A DNA stretch of 64,000 bases from Leptotrichia hofstadii (GTDB lineage: Bacteria; Fusobacteriota; Fusobacteriia; Fusobacteriales; Leptotrichiaceae), in assembly GCF_007990525.1 (NCBI RefSeq), contig NZ_AP019823.1, positions 1,550,001-1,614,000 on the forward strand, read 5' to 3'. The position numbers and the translations under genes were made by a program. The notes below the pieces were generated by a model, which saw nothing but the letters and a program-made list of their open reading frames with translations, was not told where the DNA came from and ran no database searches. Shown one piece after another: positions 24,870-31,516 of the stretch; the stretch's first letter is position 1, and every line of letters starts with the position of its first letter.

Positions 24870-25910
24870 CTATTTCAAATCCTTACTTCCCTCTTCCAAA
24901 ATCTTTATCTGGCAAAGTATTTCCTCATCCTTGACAGTTTTTTCTTTCCCATTTTTTATTGCCTCATATAAATCATCATAAATTCTGCCATAATCACCTT
25001 TTTCCGAAATAACTTTTTCCTCATGGTAATTTCCGTTATTATCATAATAAATTAACGTCCCATAATGTTTTGGCAAATCCATTCCAAAATCTGCATTATC
25101 CGGCATATAAAACAACTTCAGATGTTCTTCTTGTCTATCCTCCGTTTCTTTTATAAAGCACCCTTTAGTTCCGTATACAATAAATGAGGCTCTAGGTTTT
25201 ATCCTAAAGTAGCTTCCTTTTACACTGACTTTTAAACTTTTCCCATTTTCCCTTTCATAAAATAAATCTATATCATAATAGTCATTCATCCGATTTGCTC
25301 CAAGAAGCTGTCTCACATCATAATTCACTTTATTAGGATTACCATACCGTGAAATTATCTGATCCAAGACATGCGTTCCATGCCCATATAAAAATGTATT
25401 TGCCTGTTTTCCATCATATTCTTTCACATTTTCAGGCACTTCTGCCCTGTAATAATCATAGTTAGACTCAATTTCCAAAATTTCTCCTAATTTTCCGCTT
25501 TCAATCACTTTCATTGTGATCAAGAAATCGCTGTCAAATCTTCTATTGTGATAAGGCTGCACAATTAGACCTTTTTCCTTAGCTAACCTAAATAACTCCT
25601 GCGCTTCTTCCAAAGTTTCAACAAAAGGCTTTTCCACAAGGCAGTTTTTTCCATGTTCCAGCACTTCTTTAGCGTATTTATAATGCAAGTCAGATCTTAG
25701 GCAGATAACAACCAGATCAATTTCAGAATCGTTATACAGTTCTTCAATTTTATCAGTATAATTAATCCCGTCTATTCTCTTCCAAGTCTTATTTTCCAAA
25801 TTATTTGTAACAATAGTCTTCACTTTTATTTTATCTTTTCTTTGCAGTAAAAATGGCAGATGGTATCTGTTTGCACTTTTGCCATTTCCAATAATTCCTA
25901 TTTTCATCAT
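24870..25910 (-). CDS. Gfo/Idh/MocA family NAD(P)-dependent oxidoreductase
   Basis: A 346-aa cytoplasmic dehydrogenase. The Rossmann start KIGIIGNGKSANRYHLPF, the strand DLVVICLRSDLHY and the family's catalytic EKPF are visible, followed by the C-terminal alpha/beta domain (NTFLYGHGTHVLDQ). Family members oxidise sugars, inositols or related compounds. The position 14 bp downstream of the GH1 glycosidase gene, in the same direction, suggests it processes a product of beta-glucoside use. Two ATGs in tandem follow AAAGGA, and I use the first. Confidence 0.92.
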   Translation of the reverse strand: MMKIGIIGNGKSANRYHLPFLLQRKDKIKVKTIVTNNLENKTWKRIDGINYTDKIEELYNDSEIDLVVICLRSDLHYKYAKEVLEHGKNCLVEKPFVETLEEAQELFRLAKEKGLIVQPYHNRRFDSDFLITMKVIESGKLGEILEIESNYDYYRAEVPENVKEYDGKQANTFLYGHGTHVLDQIISRYGNPNKVNYDVRQLLGANRMNDYYDIDLFYERENGKSLKVSVKGSYFRIKPRASFIVYGTKGCFIKETEDRQEEHLKLFYMPDNADFGMDLPKHYGTLIYYDNNGNYHEEKVISEKGDYGRIYDDLYEAIKNGKEKTVKDEEILCQIKILEEGSKDLK

Positions 25911-25924
25911 AATAATTATCCTTT

Positions 25925-27442
<1,518 letters not shown>

Positions 27443-27669: not shown

Positions 27670-27996
27670 CTATTTTTGTTCCAATCTCTTGTACACTTCG
27701 ATAAATTCCTTTGCCAGCTCCTTAAACAAAATTGCTGTCATCAAATGATCCTGTGAATGTACCATAATTAATCCAACATCAATTTTTTCTCCACCTGCTT
27801 CTCTCACAATCAAATCTGTCTGCAATTCATGTGCTTTCAGCATTTCCTCAGTAGACTGTTTCATAAATTCTTCCGCTTCATCAAACTTCCCTGCCTTCGC
27901 CGCATTCATAGCCTGATAAGCCAAACTTTTAGTTTCTCCTGCCTGTCCAATCAATGTCATTGCAATCATTTCAATATCCAATATTTCTTCAGCCAT
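27670..27996 (-). CDS. celC: PTS lactose/cellobiose-type EIIA
   Basis: A 108-aa helical phosphocarrier of the Lac/Chb IIA family that passes phosphate from HPr to IIB. The phospho-acceptor His80 and structural Asp83 lie in the diagnostic motif VHSQDHLMT. The start is the ATG at 27996 with AGGAGG upstream; an in-frame extension to 28035 lacks support. IIA is transcribed away from IIB and IIC, which lie beyond the Rep_3-like gene. It has a near-consensus promoter at 28065-28093 carrying the shared upstream boxes. Sugar specificity is inferred from GH1 and IIB/IIC neighbours. Confidence 0.95.
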   Translation of the reverse strand: MAEEILDIEMIAMTLIGQAGETKSLAYQAMNAAKAGKFDEAEEFMKQSTEEMLKAHELQTDLIVREAGGEKIDVGLIMVHSQDHLMTAILFKELAKEFIEVYKRLEQK

Positions 27997-28064
27997 AGTA
28001 AATCCTCCTAAATAATTATTTTTTAGTTTTATCAAATTTTATATTAAAATTTCTTCTTAATTTT

Positions 28065-28209
28065 GTTATAACACACGTTTCCCTGTATGTCAATTTTTCA
28101 TATTTTTAATTCATTTTTCGTCTATTTTTATTAATTTTATTATTAATTAAAGCATAAATCCAATATTCTATGAAAATAAACGATTTACAATTATATCTTT
28201 TTTCGTGTA
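28065..28209 (-). promoter_or_regulatory. PTS IIA promoter with distal regulatory boxes
   Basis: On the minus strand: TTGACA (28093-28088), 17-nt spacer, TATAAC (28070-28065). TAGACGAAAAAT (28124-28113) ends exactly 19 nt before the -35 box. TACACGAAAAAA (28209-28198) starts exactly 85 nt upstream of that box. An inverted element ATCGTTTATTTT (28184-28173) lies between them. The same three elements at the same distances precede the IIB promoter at 29528-29671. Confidence 0.8.
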
Positions 28210-28213
28210 TAAT
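28184..28213 (+). promoter_or_regulatory. Promoter of the Rep_3-like gene, overlapping regulatory boxes
   Basis: TTTACA (28184-28189), an 18-nt spacer (17 if TTACAA is used) and TATAAT (28208-28213), about 80 nt before the start codon at 28293. The distal ACGAAAAAA box (28198-28209, minus orientation) covers the spacer and edge of the -10. The inverted middle element touches the -35. Binding there would be expected to repress this promoter. Confidence 0.6.
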
Positions 28214-28292: not shown

Positions 28293-29492
28293 ATGGATAT
28301 TTATGCACCAATTAACAAACATTTTTTAGAAAATAAAAAAATAAAAATTTCATTTTCAAAGGTATTGAATAAAAAAGAAAAATATTTTTTAAAGTTTCTT
28401 TTTATGGAATATAAGTTGCTGGAAAAATTTGAGAAAGCGACTATTTTACAAGATGTTGATTTAAATGAAATATTAGATGTGCTTAAATTTTCTACATTTG
28501 AGCAATTGAAAAAATTTTTGGATAATTTACAAGTGAAAAAGCTAGAATTTTCGATTTCTAGTAATGATAAAATTGTGCTTTATGGAAGATTTCCAATTTT
28601 GGTGTCTTACAATATTGTTTATTCCAAAATTGAATTTCAATTTGCAAGAGAAATTCAAAATGCCAGGAAAAATAATACTTTATTCTCACTTCTTAGATTT
28701 GATTTTCTGGTTTTTATGGGAAACGAGGCTACTTATAATTTTTATACTTATTTAATTTCTGATAAAAACTATAATAATAATACTGTAATTACGTTAGAAA
28801 GACTAAAAGAAATGTTTGATACCGGGGATAAATATGAACGTTTTTTTGACTTTGAAAAACAGGTTTTAAAAAAAGCGATTGAAACTATAAATCTTTTTTC
28901 TGACATCAAGGTTGTCTATGAAAAAATTAAGGTTGGAGAACATGTAAATAATAAAGTGGAAAAAATTCGTTTTAAGATAATTGATAACAGTAAATCTTCT
29001 GAAGAGAAAAACAAGGAGCTTGTTCAGCATATAAACAGCATTATGGACTTGATAAAAAATGATGTAAAAGATTTTCACGCTACTTATGAATTGATAAAAA
29101 AGTATATTTTGAAGAAAAATTACGATTATGTTTATACAAATGTTATTTTTACAAAAAAGCAATTTAAAAACAATATAGAAAAGCAGTTAAAAAAAGTTTT
29201 GCTGCTTGATTTGGGACAATCCTTAAAAAATAACTTAAAACGTGAATCAGAGGTTTTGAACATAAAAAGAAAATACCGTACTCCTTTTTTCCTTCAGCTT
29301 GATATGTCCAATCTCATGCGTCAGAATCATTTGGAAAATGAGCTTAGAATTCTAGTTGACGATGGATATTTTAACGAAATTCTTACTTTAAAAAATGAAC
29401 AGATAATGGAACAGAGCTTTACTGACTTCAAAATCTATATAAAGTACTTCCAAAATGCTAAAAGCCAAATAAAAATTATAAAATTCCTATAA
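28293..29492 (+). CDS. Rep_3 (RepB) plasmid-initiator-like DNA-binding protein, likely PTS regulator
   Basis: A 399-aa protein. Residues about 10-240 have the double winged-helix plan of Rep_3 plasmid initiators. A first domain opens with ISFSKVLNKKEKYFLKFLF and a hinge with YSKIEFQFAREIQ follows. The second domain has the family's best-known pattern: VITLERLKEMFDTGDKYERF, VLKKAIETINLFSDIKVVYE and KIRFKI. A further ~160 residues (NKELVQHINSIMDL to the end) form a helical basic extension I do not recognise. No plasmid genes or tandem iterons are near; the gene sits between divergent PTS operons. Regulation of these by the protein is inference. The ATG at 28293 has AAAGGAG 12 bases upstream. 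Confidence 0.72.
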   Translation: MDIYAPINKHFLENKKIKISFSKVLNKKEKYFLKFLFMEYKLLEKFEKATILQDVDLNEILDVLKFSTFEQLKKFLDNLQVKKLEFSISSNDKIVLYGRFPILVSYNIVYSKIEFQFAREIQNARKNNTLFSLLRFDFLVFMGNEATYNFYTYLISDKNYNNNTVITLERLKEMFDTGDKYERFFDFEKQVLKKAIETINLFSDIKVVYEKIKVGEHVNNKVEKIRFKIIDNSKSSEEKNKELVQHINSIMDLIKNDVKDFHATYELIKKYILKKNYDYVYTNVIFTKKQFKNNIEKQLKKVLLLDLGQSLKNNLKRESEVLNIKRKYRTPFFLQLDMSNLMRQNHLENELRILVDDGYFNEILTLKNEQIMEQSFTDFKIYIKYFQNAKSQIKIIKFL

Positions 29493-29527: not shown

Positions 29528-29671
29528 TAAACGAAAAAATATATATTTTTTTATCACTTATTTTATTTTTAAATTTGTAAAACCTTATTTTGATTATATT
29601 TAAAACAAAATATAGACGAAAAATAATGGTTTTTTTATAAAATTTGACTTATAGAAAATTAATGGTATACT
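29528..29671 (+). promoter_or_regulatory. PTS IIB-IIC promoter with the same upstream boxes
   Basis: TTGACT (29644-29649), 16-nt spacer, TATACT (29666-29671) with an extended -10 TGG. TAGACGAAAAAT (29613-29624) ends 19 nt before the -35. TAAACGAAAAAA (29528-29539) starts 85 nt upstream of that box. ATCACTTATTTT lies at the same offset between them as in the IIA promoter. About 95 nt separate the -10 from the IIB start. Confidence 0.8.
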
Positions 29672-29766: not shown

Positions 29767-30072
29767 ATGAAAAAAATCTTATTATGCTGCGCAGCAGGAA
29801 TGTCTACTAGCCTATTGGTAAACAAAATGAAAGCTGAGGCTGAAAAAAGAGGAATCGAAGCTGAAATTTGGGCAGAACCACTTGACAAGGCAAAAGAAGA
29901 ATTTCCAAAAGCTGACGTTATTTTATTGGGGCCGCAAGTTAAATATGCCTTGCCAGAAGCTCAAAAAATCGCTGAAGAAAATAACATTAACATAGATGTA
30001 ATTAATATGGTTGATTATGGAATGATGAATGGGGCGAAAGTGTTAGATCAGGCGTTAAATTTAATTAAATAG
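29767..30072 (+). CDS. celA: PTS lactose/cellobiose-type EIIB
   Basis: A 101-aa phosphocarrier. The phospho-acceptor Cys8 lies in LLCCAAGMSTS, the signature of cellobiose/chitobiose IIB proteins, and the rest follows the small IIB fold (DVILLGPQVKYALPEAQKIA). It takes phosphate from IIA (27670-27996) and passes it to the sugar during transport through IIC. AAGGAAGGA precedes the ATG. IIC follows after a 150-bp gap that contains a hairpin with a T-run. Confidence 0.96.
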   Translation: MKKILLCCAAGMSTSLLVNKMKAEAEKRGIEAEIWAEPLDKAKEEFPKADVILLGPQVKYALPEAQKIAEENNINIDVINMVDYGMMNGAKVLDQALNLIK

Positions 30073-30223: not shown

Positions 30224-31516
30224 ATGGCTAATATTATGGACAAATTTACACAGTTTTTAGAAGAAAAGTTAATGCCTGTCGCTGTAAAAGTGGCTAATCA
30301 GAGACATTTAGCGGCAATCAAAGATGGAATGGTCATTACATTGCCATTTATTATTGCAGGATCTGTATTTTTGATTTTAGGAAACTTGCCAATACCAGCA
30401 TTAGCTAATTTTTATAAATATAATGCAGTTGGGCAGATTATTGCAAAATGGTTATCTTATCCTGTTGATGTAACATTTAATTTATTAGGATTTATTGCGT
30501 GTATCGGTATTTCATATAAATTGGCTCAGCACTATAAATTAGATGAAATTTCCAGTACAATCTTAGGAGTTTTGGCATTTTTACTTGTAACTCCATTTCA
30601 TAATGGTATCCCACTGCCTAGTATGGGAAGCGGAGGATTATTCGTAGCTATAATAATGTCTCTTTTGGCAATAGAAATTGTAAACTTTATTGTGAAAAAG
30701 AATATTGTTATTAAAATGCCTGATTCTGTACCACCTGCAGTATCAAAATCATTTGCGGCATTAATTCCAGGTTTTTTTGTTATTATGATTTCGCTTATGA
30801 TAAGAATTGCATTTGAAGTTTCTCCATTTGGAAATATACATAAAGTTGTTGAAATGGTCTTAACTAAACCGCTTACAGCATTGGGAGGATCTTTCTTTGG
30901 AATGATGGGACTTTCTTTCATAACTAATTTACTATGGACTGCTGGAATACATGGTTCAAACCTAGTAACAGGAGGTATAGCAAGACCTGTACTGGATACA
31001 TTAATGGATCAGAATAGAATTGCGCTTAGTGCTGGAAAACCTCTTCCAAATATAGTTACAACTCAGTTTTTTGATATATTTCACAATATGGGAGGTTCTG
31101 GAACAACTTTCTCTCTTGCTATTATGCTGCTTTTCCTTTCTAAGAGCAAACAGCTTAAAGAAATTGGTAAATTAGCAATTGGTCCTGCTTTTTTCAATAT
31201 TAATGAACCTATTTTATTTGGACTTCCAATAGTTATGAATCCTATTTTAATTATTCCGTTTATATTGGCTCCTTTAGTTACAGTAATGGTTACTTATCTA
31301 GCTATGTACTCAGGATTAGTTGCAAAAGTAACTGGAGTTGCCTTGCCTTGGACAACGCCGCCTTTCATATCTGGTTTTCTCGCAACGAGCCATTGGACAG
31401 GAGCAGCCATACAAGTAGTAAACTTCTTCATAACAGCGGCTATTTACTATCCATTCTTTAAAATATGGGATGACAAAAAATTACAGGAAGAAAATGGAAC
31501 AGCAAGTACAAATTAA
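30224..31516 (+). CDS. celB: PTS cellobiose-type EIIC permease
   Basis: A 430-aa inner-membrane permease with about ten hydrophobic segments, of the Lac/Cel EIIC family. Recognisable parts are the N-terminal AIKDGMVITLPFIIAGSVFL, the central TNLLWTAGIHGSNLV, and FNINEPILFGLPIVMNP, which carries the conserved His/Glu sugar-site region. It imports and phosphorylates a beta-glucoside with IIA and IIB. AGGAGG lies seven bases before the ATG. Downstream, no terminator is seen before the trp leader promoter 40 bp away. Confidence 0.95.
   Translation: MANIMDKFTQFLEEKLMPVAVKVANQRHLAAIKDGMVITLPFIIAGSVFLILGNLPIPALANFYKYNAVGQIIAKWLSYPVDVTFNLLGFIACIGISYKLAQHYKLDEISSTILGVLAFLLVTPFHNGIPLPSMGSGGLFVAIIMSLLAIEIVNFIVKKNIVIKMPDSVPPAVSKSFAALIPGFFVIMISLMIRIAFEVSPFGNIHKVVEMVLTKPLTALGGSFFGMMGLSFITNLLWTAGIHGSNLVTGGIARPVLDTLMDQNRIALSAGKPLPNIVTTQFFDIFHNMGGSGTTFSLAIMLLFLSKSKQLKEIGKLAIGPAFFNINEPILFGLPIVMNPILIIPFILAPLVTVMVTYLAMYSGLVAKVTGVALPWTTPPFISGFLATSHWTGAAIQVVNFFITAAIYYPFFKIWDDKKLQEENGTASTN

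Follow-up and report, generated by a model that had tools for sequence, protein, structure and literature searches.

Rep_3 initiator cores beside PTS operons: a Fusobacteriota family of putative sugar-operon regulators with a shared operator at a fixed promoter distance

Why does a protein resembling a plasmid replication initiator reside between the genes of a chromosomal sugar phosphotransferase system (PTS)? This question is raised by a gene in the window, a 64,000-nucleotide stretch of the Leptotrichia hofstadii genome (GCF_007990525.1, contig NZ_AP019823.1, positions 1,550,001 to 1,614,000). Around the gene, a lactose/cellobiose-type PTS locus is split into two parts, IIA and a GH1 gene to the left on the minus strand and IIB and IIC to the right on the plus strand. 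For brevity, the product of the gene in between is called the regulator here, although its control of the neighbouring operons is inferred. The genes of the locus are as follows:

24870..25910, minus strand, GFO/IDH/MocA oxidoreductase, probably in the IIA-bglA operon
25925..27361, minus strand, GH1 (6-phospho-)beta-glucosidase (bglA), proposed target
27670..28002, minus strand, PTS IIA (lactose/cellobiose), proposed target
28293..29492, plus strand, Rep_3-derived regulator gene, 399 aa (identified by Pfam, AlphaFold2 and structure alignment)
29767..30072, plus strand, PTS IIB (lactose/cellobiose), proposed target
30224..31516, plus strand, PTS EIIC, proposed target

The locus is located on a 2.55-Mb chromosomal contig, its neighbours are metabolic and the synteny is conserved in relatives. 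The start at 28293 is favoured by conservation, as the orthologue at another locus (L040) begins exactly there. A longer start at 28170, proposed by the ORF finder, lies upstream of the -10 element (28208-28213) described below. A sequence-only reading of this DNA had placed the gene between IIA and IIB-IIC, with no tandem iterons and no BglG, LacI or CelR gene at the locus. This held for the neighbours scanned, among which no regulator domain was found, and the window locus has no tandem iterons.

The same reading had assigned the protein to Rep_3 by a two winged-helix plan and a KYERF motif, and this held as well. A Pfam scan matched Rep3_C (PF21205) at residues 167-229 (E 1e-12, 48.5 bits vs a cut-off of 21.1), a stretch that includes KYERF at residues 180-184, and returned no other family; PHROGs and NCBIfam returned replication-initiation families. 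The Rep3_N profile (PF01051) gave no match at the locus, leaving the first winged helix unrecognised by sequence, and a sequence search of solved structures with the regulator yielded chance matches only. The AlphaFold2 model, built from 26 sequences (pLDDT 82), displays two winged helices (WH1, residues ~16-117; WH2, ~130-231), a helical linker (~236-313) and a C-terminal alpha/beta domain (~318-398). When the model was compared to solved structures by Foldseek, the matches at E <0.001 were RepE entries. VIA-align on residues 16-234 gave Z 13.1 to RepE (2z9o, an operator-bound dimer and the best match) and Z 11.9 to pi (2nra), with both tandem winged helices superposed in the RepE/pi arrangement at an rmsd of 6.4-9.1 over 190 residues. 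Rep3_C was also matched by Pfam in 23/23 diverse relatives scanned. The regulator consists of a Rep_3 initiator core, the fold being that predicted by the model, and an extra C-terminal domain.

The relatives of this protein form one Fusobacteriota clade of about 125 members, most of them linked to PTS genes. A profile search of 98 Fusobacteriota genomes detected relatives in 54, with up to ~10 per genome; named records with relatives include Leptotrichia, Sebaldella, Cetobacterium, Propionigenium and Psychrilyobacter. A PTS component occurs within four genes in 113/125 neighbourhoods, with 112 divergent from the PTS. These neighbourhoods include close orthologues, and the relatives are mostly chromosomal. 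Neither of the outcomes that sequence could have turned against the co-option of an initiator, a missing structural match to Rep_3 or homologues found only on plasmids or integrated plasmids with iterons, occurred. The adjacent systems belong to six superfamilies (lac/cel, glucose, mannose, fructose-like, glucitol and galactitol). Of the 12 exceptions, eight are truncated by the end of their contig, so that the upstream operon is missing from the sequence; the remaining four adjoin ABC transporters (L172 and L193, with the same layout at L173) or lactonase-like genes (L211). Within the genus, the regulator orthologue and its EIIC orthologue are both present in 7/13 genomes and both absent in 6/13. 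One regulator-less genome, that of L. hongkongensis (G006), retains only fragments of the IIA/IIB region, the regulator and IIC being deleted (L215:4542-5833). The glucose-group regulator of L. hongkongensis is broken, with a frame split by stops, beside a seemingly intact PTS operon (L055:6577-7510).

In a tree of the shared core, the 53 dereplicated PTS-linked proteins, long and short, fall on one side of a single branch (support 100/99), and six plasmid-type relatives from several phyla together with one integrase-linked, plasmid-like gene fall on the other. This single branch is consistent with one recruitment, although sampling on the plasmid side is thin. Among 398 Bacillota genomes no further member was found at E <1e-20, save one plasmid-like gene. 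A profile search of viral contigs gave no relatives, and comparison to phage and plasmid records gave no match and distant matches only, respectively. One relative is encoded on a 664-kb plasmid of Cetobacterium somerae, where it is divergent from a mannose-type PTS operon and annotated as 'replication initiation protein' (L213:5944-7176). Several regulators of the family are divergent from a conserved cluster that encodes SFCGS, DUF4312 and DUF4311 proteins as well as a small protein matching PRD weakly (L062:786-1151, L063:2098-2496, L133); this cluster might possibly be an unusual PTS-like transporter.

The C-terminal extension, put at ~160 residues by the sequence-only reading, measures ~165 aa and has no recognised fold; that it senses a signal, as also proposed there, remains an inference. 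Folded alone, the C-terminal domain reached a pLDDT of 90, and a fold search with it returned nothing at E <0.001. Its best Z score (6.4) fell in the helical part and was uninformative, and roadblock, longin or PAS-like folds reached Z 3-4 only and were not accepted. No known ligand domain accounts for sensing. A PRD-like phosphorylation mechanism was dropped, as no PRD match was among the families found in 23 relatives and no histidine column exceeded 35%, leaving no conserved histidine. Some short relatives (280-311 aa) without the C-terminal domain still adjoin PTS operons. Grouping the long forms alone into one clade was rejected (p-AU 6e-8); the short forms nest among the long ones, which indicates repeated loss or gain of the domain. 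The absence of a PRD or conserved histidine, together with the existence of short forms, suggests that sensing may differ among members.

What DNA would such a protein recognise? Upstream of the regulator and of its PTS neighbours, the window contains repeated boxes of the pattern TTTTTCGTBTA. Of the 18 occurrences of this pattern in the entire 2.6-Mb genome, four are at this locus (28114-28124, 28199-28209, 29528-29538 and 29613-29623). The boxes and promoters are:

28065..28093, minus strand, leftward IIA-bglA promoter (TTGACA 28093-28088, 17-bp spacer, TATAAC 28070-28065)
28114..28124, plus strand, box TTTTTCGTCTA, which reads TAGACGAAAAA towards IIA, with ACGAAA starting 28 bp upstream of the IIA/bglA -35
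~28178..28183, minus strand, inverted half-site AAACGA abutting the regulator -35, conserved in orthologues
28184..28213, plus strand, the regulator's own promoter (TTTACA 28184-28189, 18-bp spacer, TATAAT 28208-28213; 11/12 matches), conserved in orthologues
28199..28209, plus strand, box TTTTTCGTGTA overlapping spacer and -10 of the regulator promoter; it is the distal box of the IIA/bglA promoter and the site proposed for autoregulation
29528..29538, minus strand, box TTTTTCGTTTA, the distal partner of the box at 29613 and 85 bp further upstream
29613..29623, minus strand, box TTTTTCGTCTA (plus strand TAGACGAAAAA), ACGAAA at 29616 starting 28 bp upstream of the IIB-IIC -35
29644..29671, plus strand, rightward IIB-IIC promoter (TTGACT, 16-bp spacer, TATACT; 10/12 matches)

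The earlier claim that repeated boxes flank the gene on both sides, two of them overlapping its promoter, was correct in that the boxes are real; the box at 28199 lies in the spacer and -10, and the half-site abuts the -35. That reading had missed that the four boxes form two pairs, each exactly 85 bp apart, and that, at both PTS promoters of the window, which are near-consensus, exactly 28 bp separate the start of the inner box from the -35 downstream of it.

Both the enrichment of the box and its fixed position at PTS promoters extend across the family. In an unsupervised comparison of all hexamers between the intergenic DNA upstream of regulators and other intergenic DNA of the same loci, TTTCGT ranked first, with 162 vs 23 occurrences before cluster reduction. 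After clustering at 60% identity it was again first, among 427 hexamers tested, and was present in 32/35 clusters vs 14/158 controls (p 3.5e-22). Shuffled sequences contained it in at most 14/35 clusters, and 63 sites were observed vs 9.2 in shuffled DNA. To determine the geometry, every TTGAC-type promoter in the PTS direction was considered; such a promoter could be recognised in 27 clusters. In 13/27 of these, the start of ACGAAA precedes the PTS -35 by 27-29 bp, in a single orientation; random placement produced a mean of 0.32 and a maximum of 3 for positions -29 to -27 (2000 runs), and none of 51 control promoters had a box at this distance. Such a start places the box centres near -61, which is the classical position of a class I activator such as CRP.

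The boxes of other clusters occur at -38, -18 or -15 from the PTS -35. In the mannose and dga groups they flank or overlap the -35, and some groups, of the glucose type, have inverted box pairs at other places, which leaves room for differences in action among members. A second box is often found 5-8 helical turns further upstream. Spacings of same-orientation pairs are often ~52-53, 64, 72-74 or 83-85 bp and follow a 10.5-bp phase (R 0.66, p ~4e-5; pairs that share a region are not independent data points in this test), while the 92-bp spacing of the mur group does not fit whole turns. With regard to the members beside ABC transporters (L172:6459-10890, L193:1666-3863), the one at L172 keeps a box at -28 from a -35.

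The boxes have an iteron-like core. In the nearest plasmid-type relatives, cores resembling GACGACAAA, AACGACAAAAA, AGACGAAGG or AACGAGAAA occur within the units of tandem repeats, which are mostly 22 bp long; these cores are close to the operator TAGACGAAAAA and have [AG]ACGA in common with it. As the iteron core was compared only after the operators were known, there was no blind test and the link to iterons is suggestive. Tandem repeats, mostly of 22-23 bp, also accompany the true Rep_3 genes of the genome and the plasmid-type outgroup. At one plasmid-type Rep_3 gene in the genome of the window, a 21-22-bp iteron with AAAACGATAC in it is present in six copies (L087:13445-13588). A separate case is a 298-kb contig with three near-identical tandem Rep3_C genes, at least one of which is followed by a tyrosine recombinase (L192:2548-15410); these resemble repeated plasmid-type units and not PTS regulators.

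We propose that a plasmid Rep_3 core was recruited once in Fusobacteriota and then duplicated, each copy controlling an adjacent carbohydrate-uptake operon. The regulator would bind TAGACGAAAAA boxes, which have the [AG]ACGA core in common with Rep_3 iterons, and, from the box near -61, would most likely activate IIA-bglA and IIB-IIC by touching RNA polymerase in the manner of a class I activator. The second box, 85 bp (~8 helical turns) upstream, would probably pair with the first by DNA looping, a putative re-use of initiator 'handcuffing', and through the box that overlaps its promoter the regulator would keep its own synthesis in check. The presence of sugar may be reported by the C-terminal domain, or by contact with a PTS component in forms that lack it. 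We consider this reading as a whole very likely. The analysis itself establishes the fold, the single clade, the PTS linkage, the box enrichment, the fixed geometry and the iteron-like core; DNA binding, activation, looping, autoregulation and the signal are all inferred, as there are no binding, expression or mutant data. The initial idea of an initiator co-opted as an autoregulated factor for sugar uptake is supported for co-option, well beyond this locus and with matching boxes upstream of PTS-linked relatives, while autoregulation remains inferred.

The main rival is a local, LacI-like repressor of the PTS operons and of its own gene, whose boxes would block or loop the promoters until a sugar or sugar-phosphate releases it. 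In its favour, the best VIA match is the operator-bound RepE dimer 2z9o, and RepE dimers of the F plasmid are known to repress their own promoter. In addition, the regulator's own promoter contains one of the boxes, the mannose and dga boxes flank or overlap the PTS -35, and the PTS promoters are near-consensus; that such promoters need no activator is a possible argument against activation. However, the commonest arrangement, seen in 13/27 diverged clusters, has a single-orientation box whose distance upstream of the -35 is fixed at 27-29 bp; repression would not require this, and we regard this rival as unlikely. Less plausible still, and very unlikely in our view, is a regulator that binds the boxes but chiefly controls itself, leaving the PTS operons to, for example, a global catabolite regulator. 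The lack of expression data and the box in the regulator's own promoter would allow this, but the linkage to six PTS superfamilies, the presence and absence shared with EIIC, and the placement of boxes relative to PTS promoters, including the second, separate IIB promoter in the window, speak against it. The third possibility, an initiator of an integrated plasmid or of a chromosomal replication origin with the boxes as sparse iterons, can draw on the Rep_3 fold, the shared iteron core and the annotation of the Cetobacterium relative, but is all but excluded, since the locus lacks the tandem iterons that the genome's true Rep_3 genes have, up to ~10 chromosomal paralogues per genome each lie beside a different sugar operon in conserved synteny (113/125 being PTS-linked), the boxes are fixed relative to PTS promoters, and there are no phage and only distant plasmid matches.

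The proposed Rep_3-derived activator shares features with several known systems. With the Rep_3 plasmid initiators (RepE of F, pi of R6K, RepA of pPS10 and RepM of Acinetobacter plasmids) it has the two winged-helix core and the Rep3_C signature in common, and with their nearest plasmid relatives the [AG]ACGA-type core in the DNA sites. Unlike them, it is chromosomal, resides beside sugar operons without tandem iterons, occurs as many paralogues per genome, has an Rep3_N region that is unrecognised by sequence and carries the extra 165-aa C-terminal domain. Sugar activators of the AraC/MelR type resemble it in the one-component control of an adjacent divergent sugar operon, which is inferred here, and in the inferred activator site near -61, with a second site whole turns away and one over its own promoter. 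In contrast to these, it has Rep_3 winged helices instead of the AraC helix-turn-helix and no recognised sugar-binding domain. The PRD-containing regulators (BglG, LicT, LevR, MtlR) occupy the same place in PTS operons, but the regulator lacks a PRD, a conserved histidine that the PTS could phosphorylate and an antiterminator RNA-binding domain. Class I activators likewise have their box upstream of the -35 at a set distance and phase (~-61), the contact to RNA polymerase being inferred for the regulator.

In the open-access literature searched, Rep_3 proteins are nowhere described as regulators of PTS genes, nor is there any account of this family, its shared operator, the fixed promoter geometry or the iteron link, all of which are new as far as we know. 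A bolder reading, which we consider likely, is that these proteins are phylum-wide factors derived from a plasmid initiator, which kept the iteron core as operator and handcuffing as looping and became a main local control of the sugar operons in Fusobacteriota. If true, more than 100 genes that pipelines tend to call 'replication initiation protein', as seen for the Cetobacterium relative, would be sugar-operon regulators, and the PTS operons of Leptotrichia, Sebaldella and Cetobacterium would be supplied with their local regulators. The family would represent a replication initiator turned into transcription factors, with enough paralogues to ask which changes made the regulator, and would provide a case for asking how iteron recognition became operator recognition.
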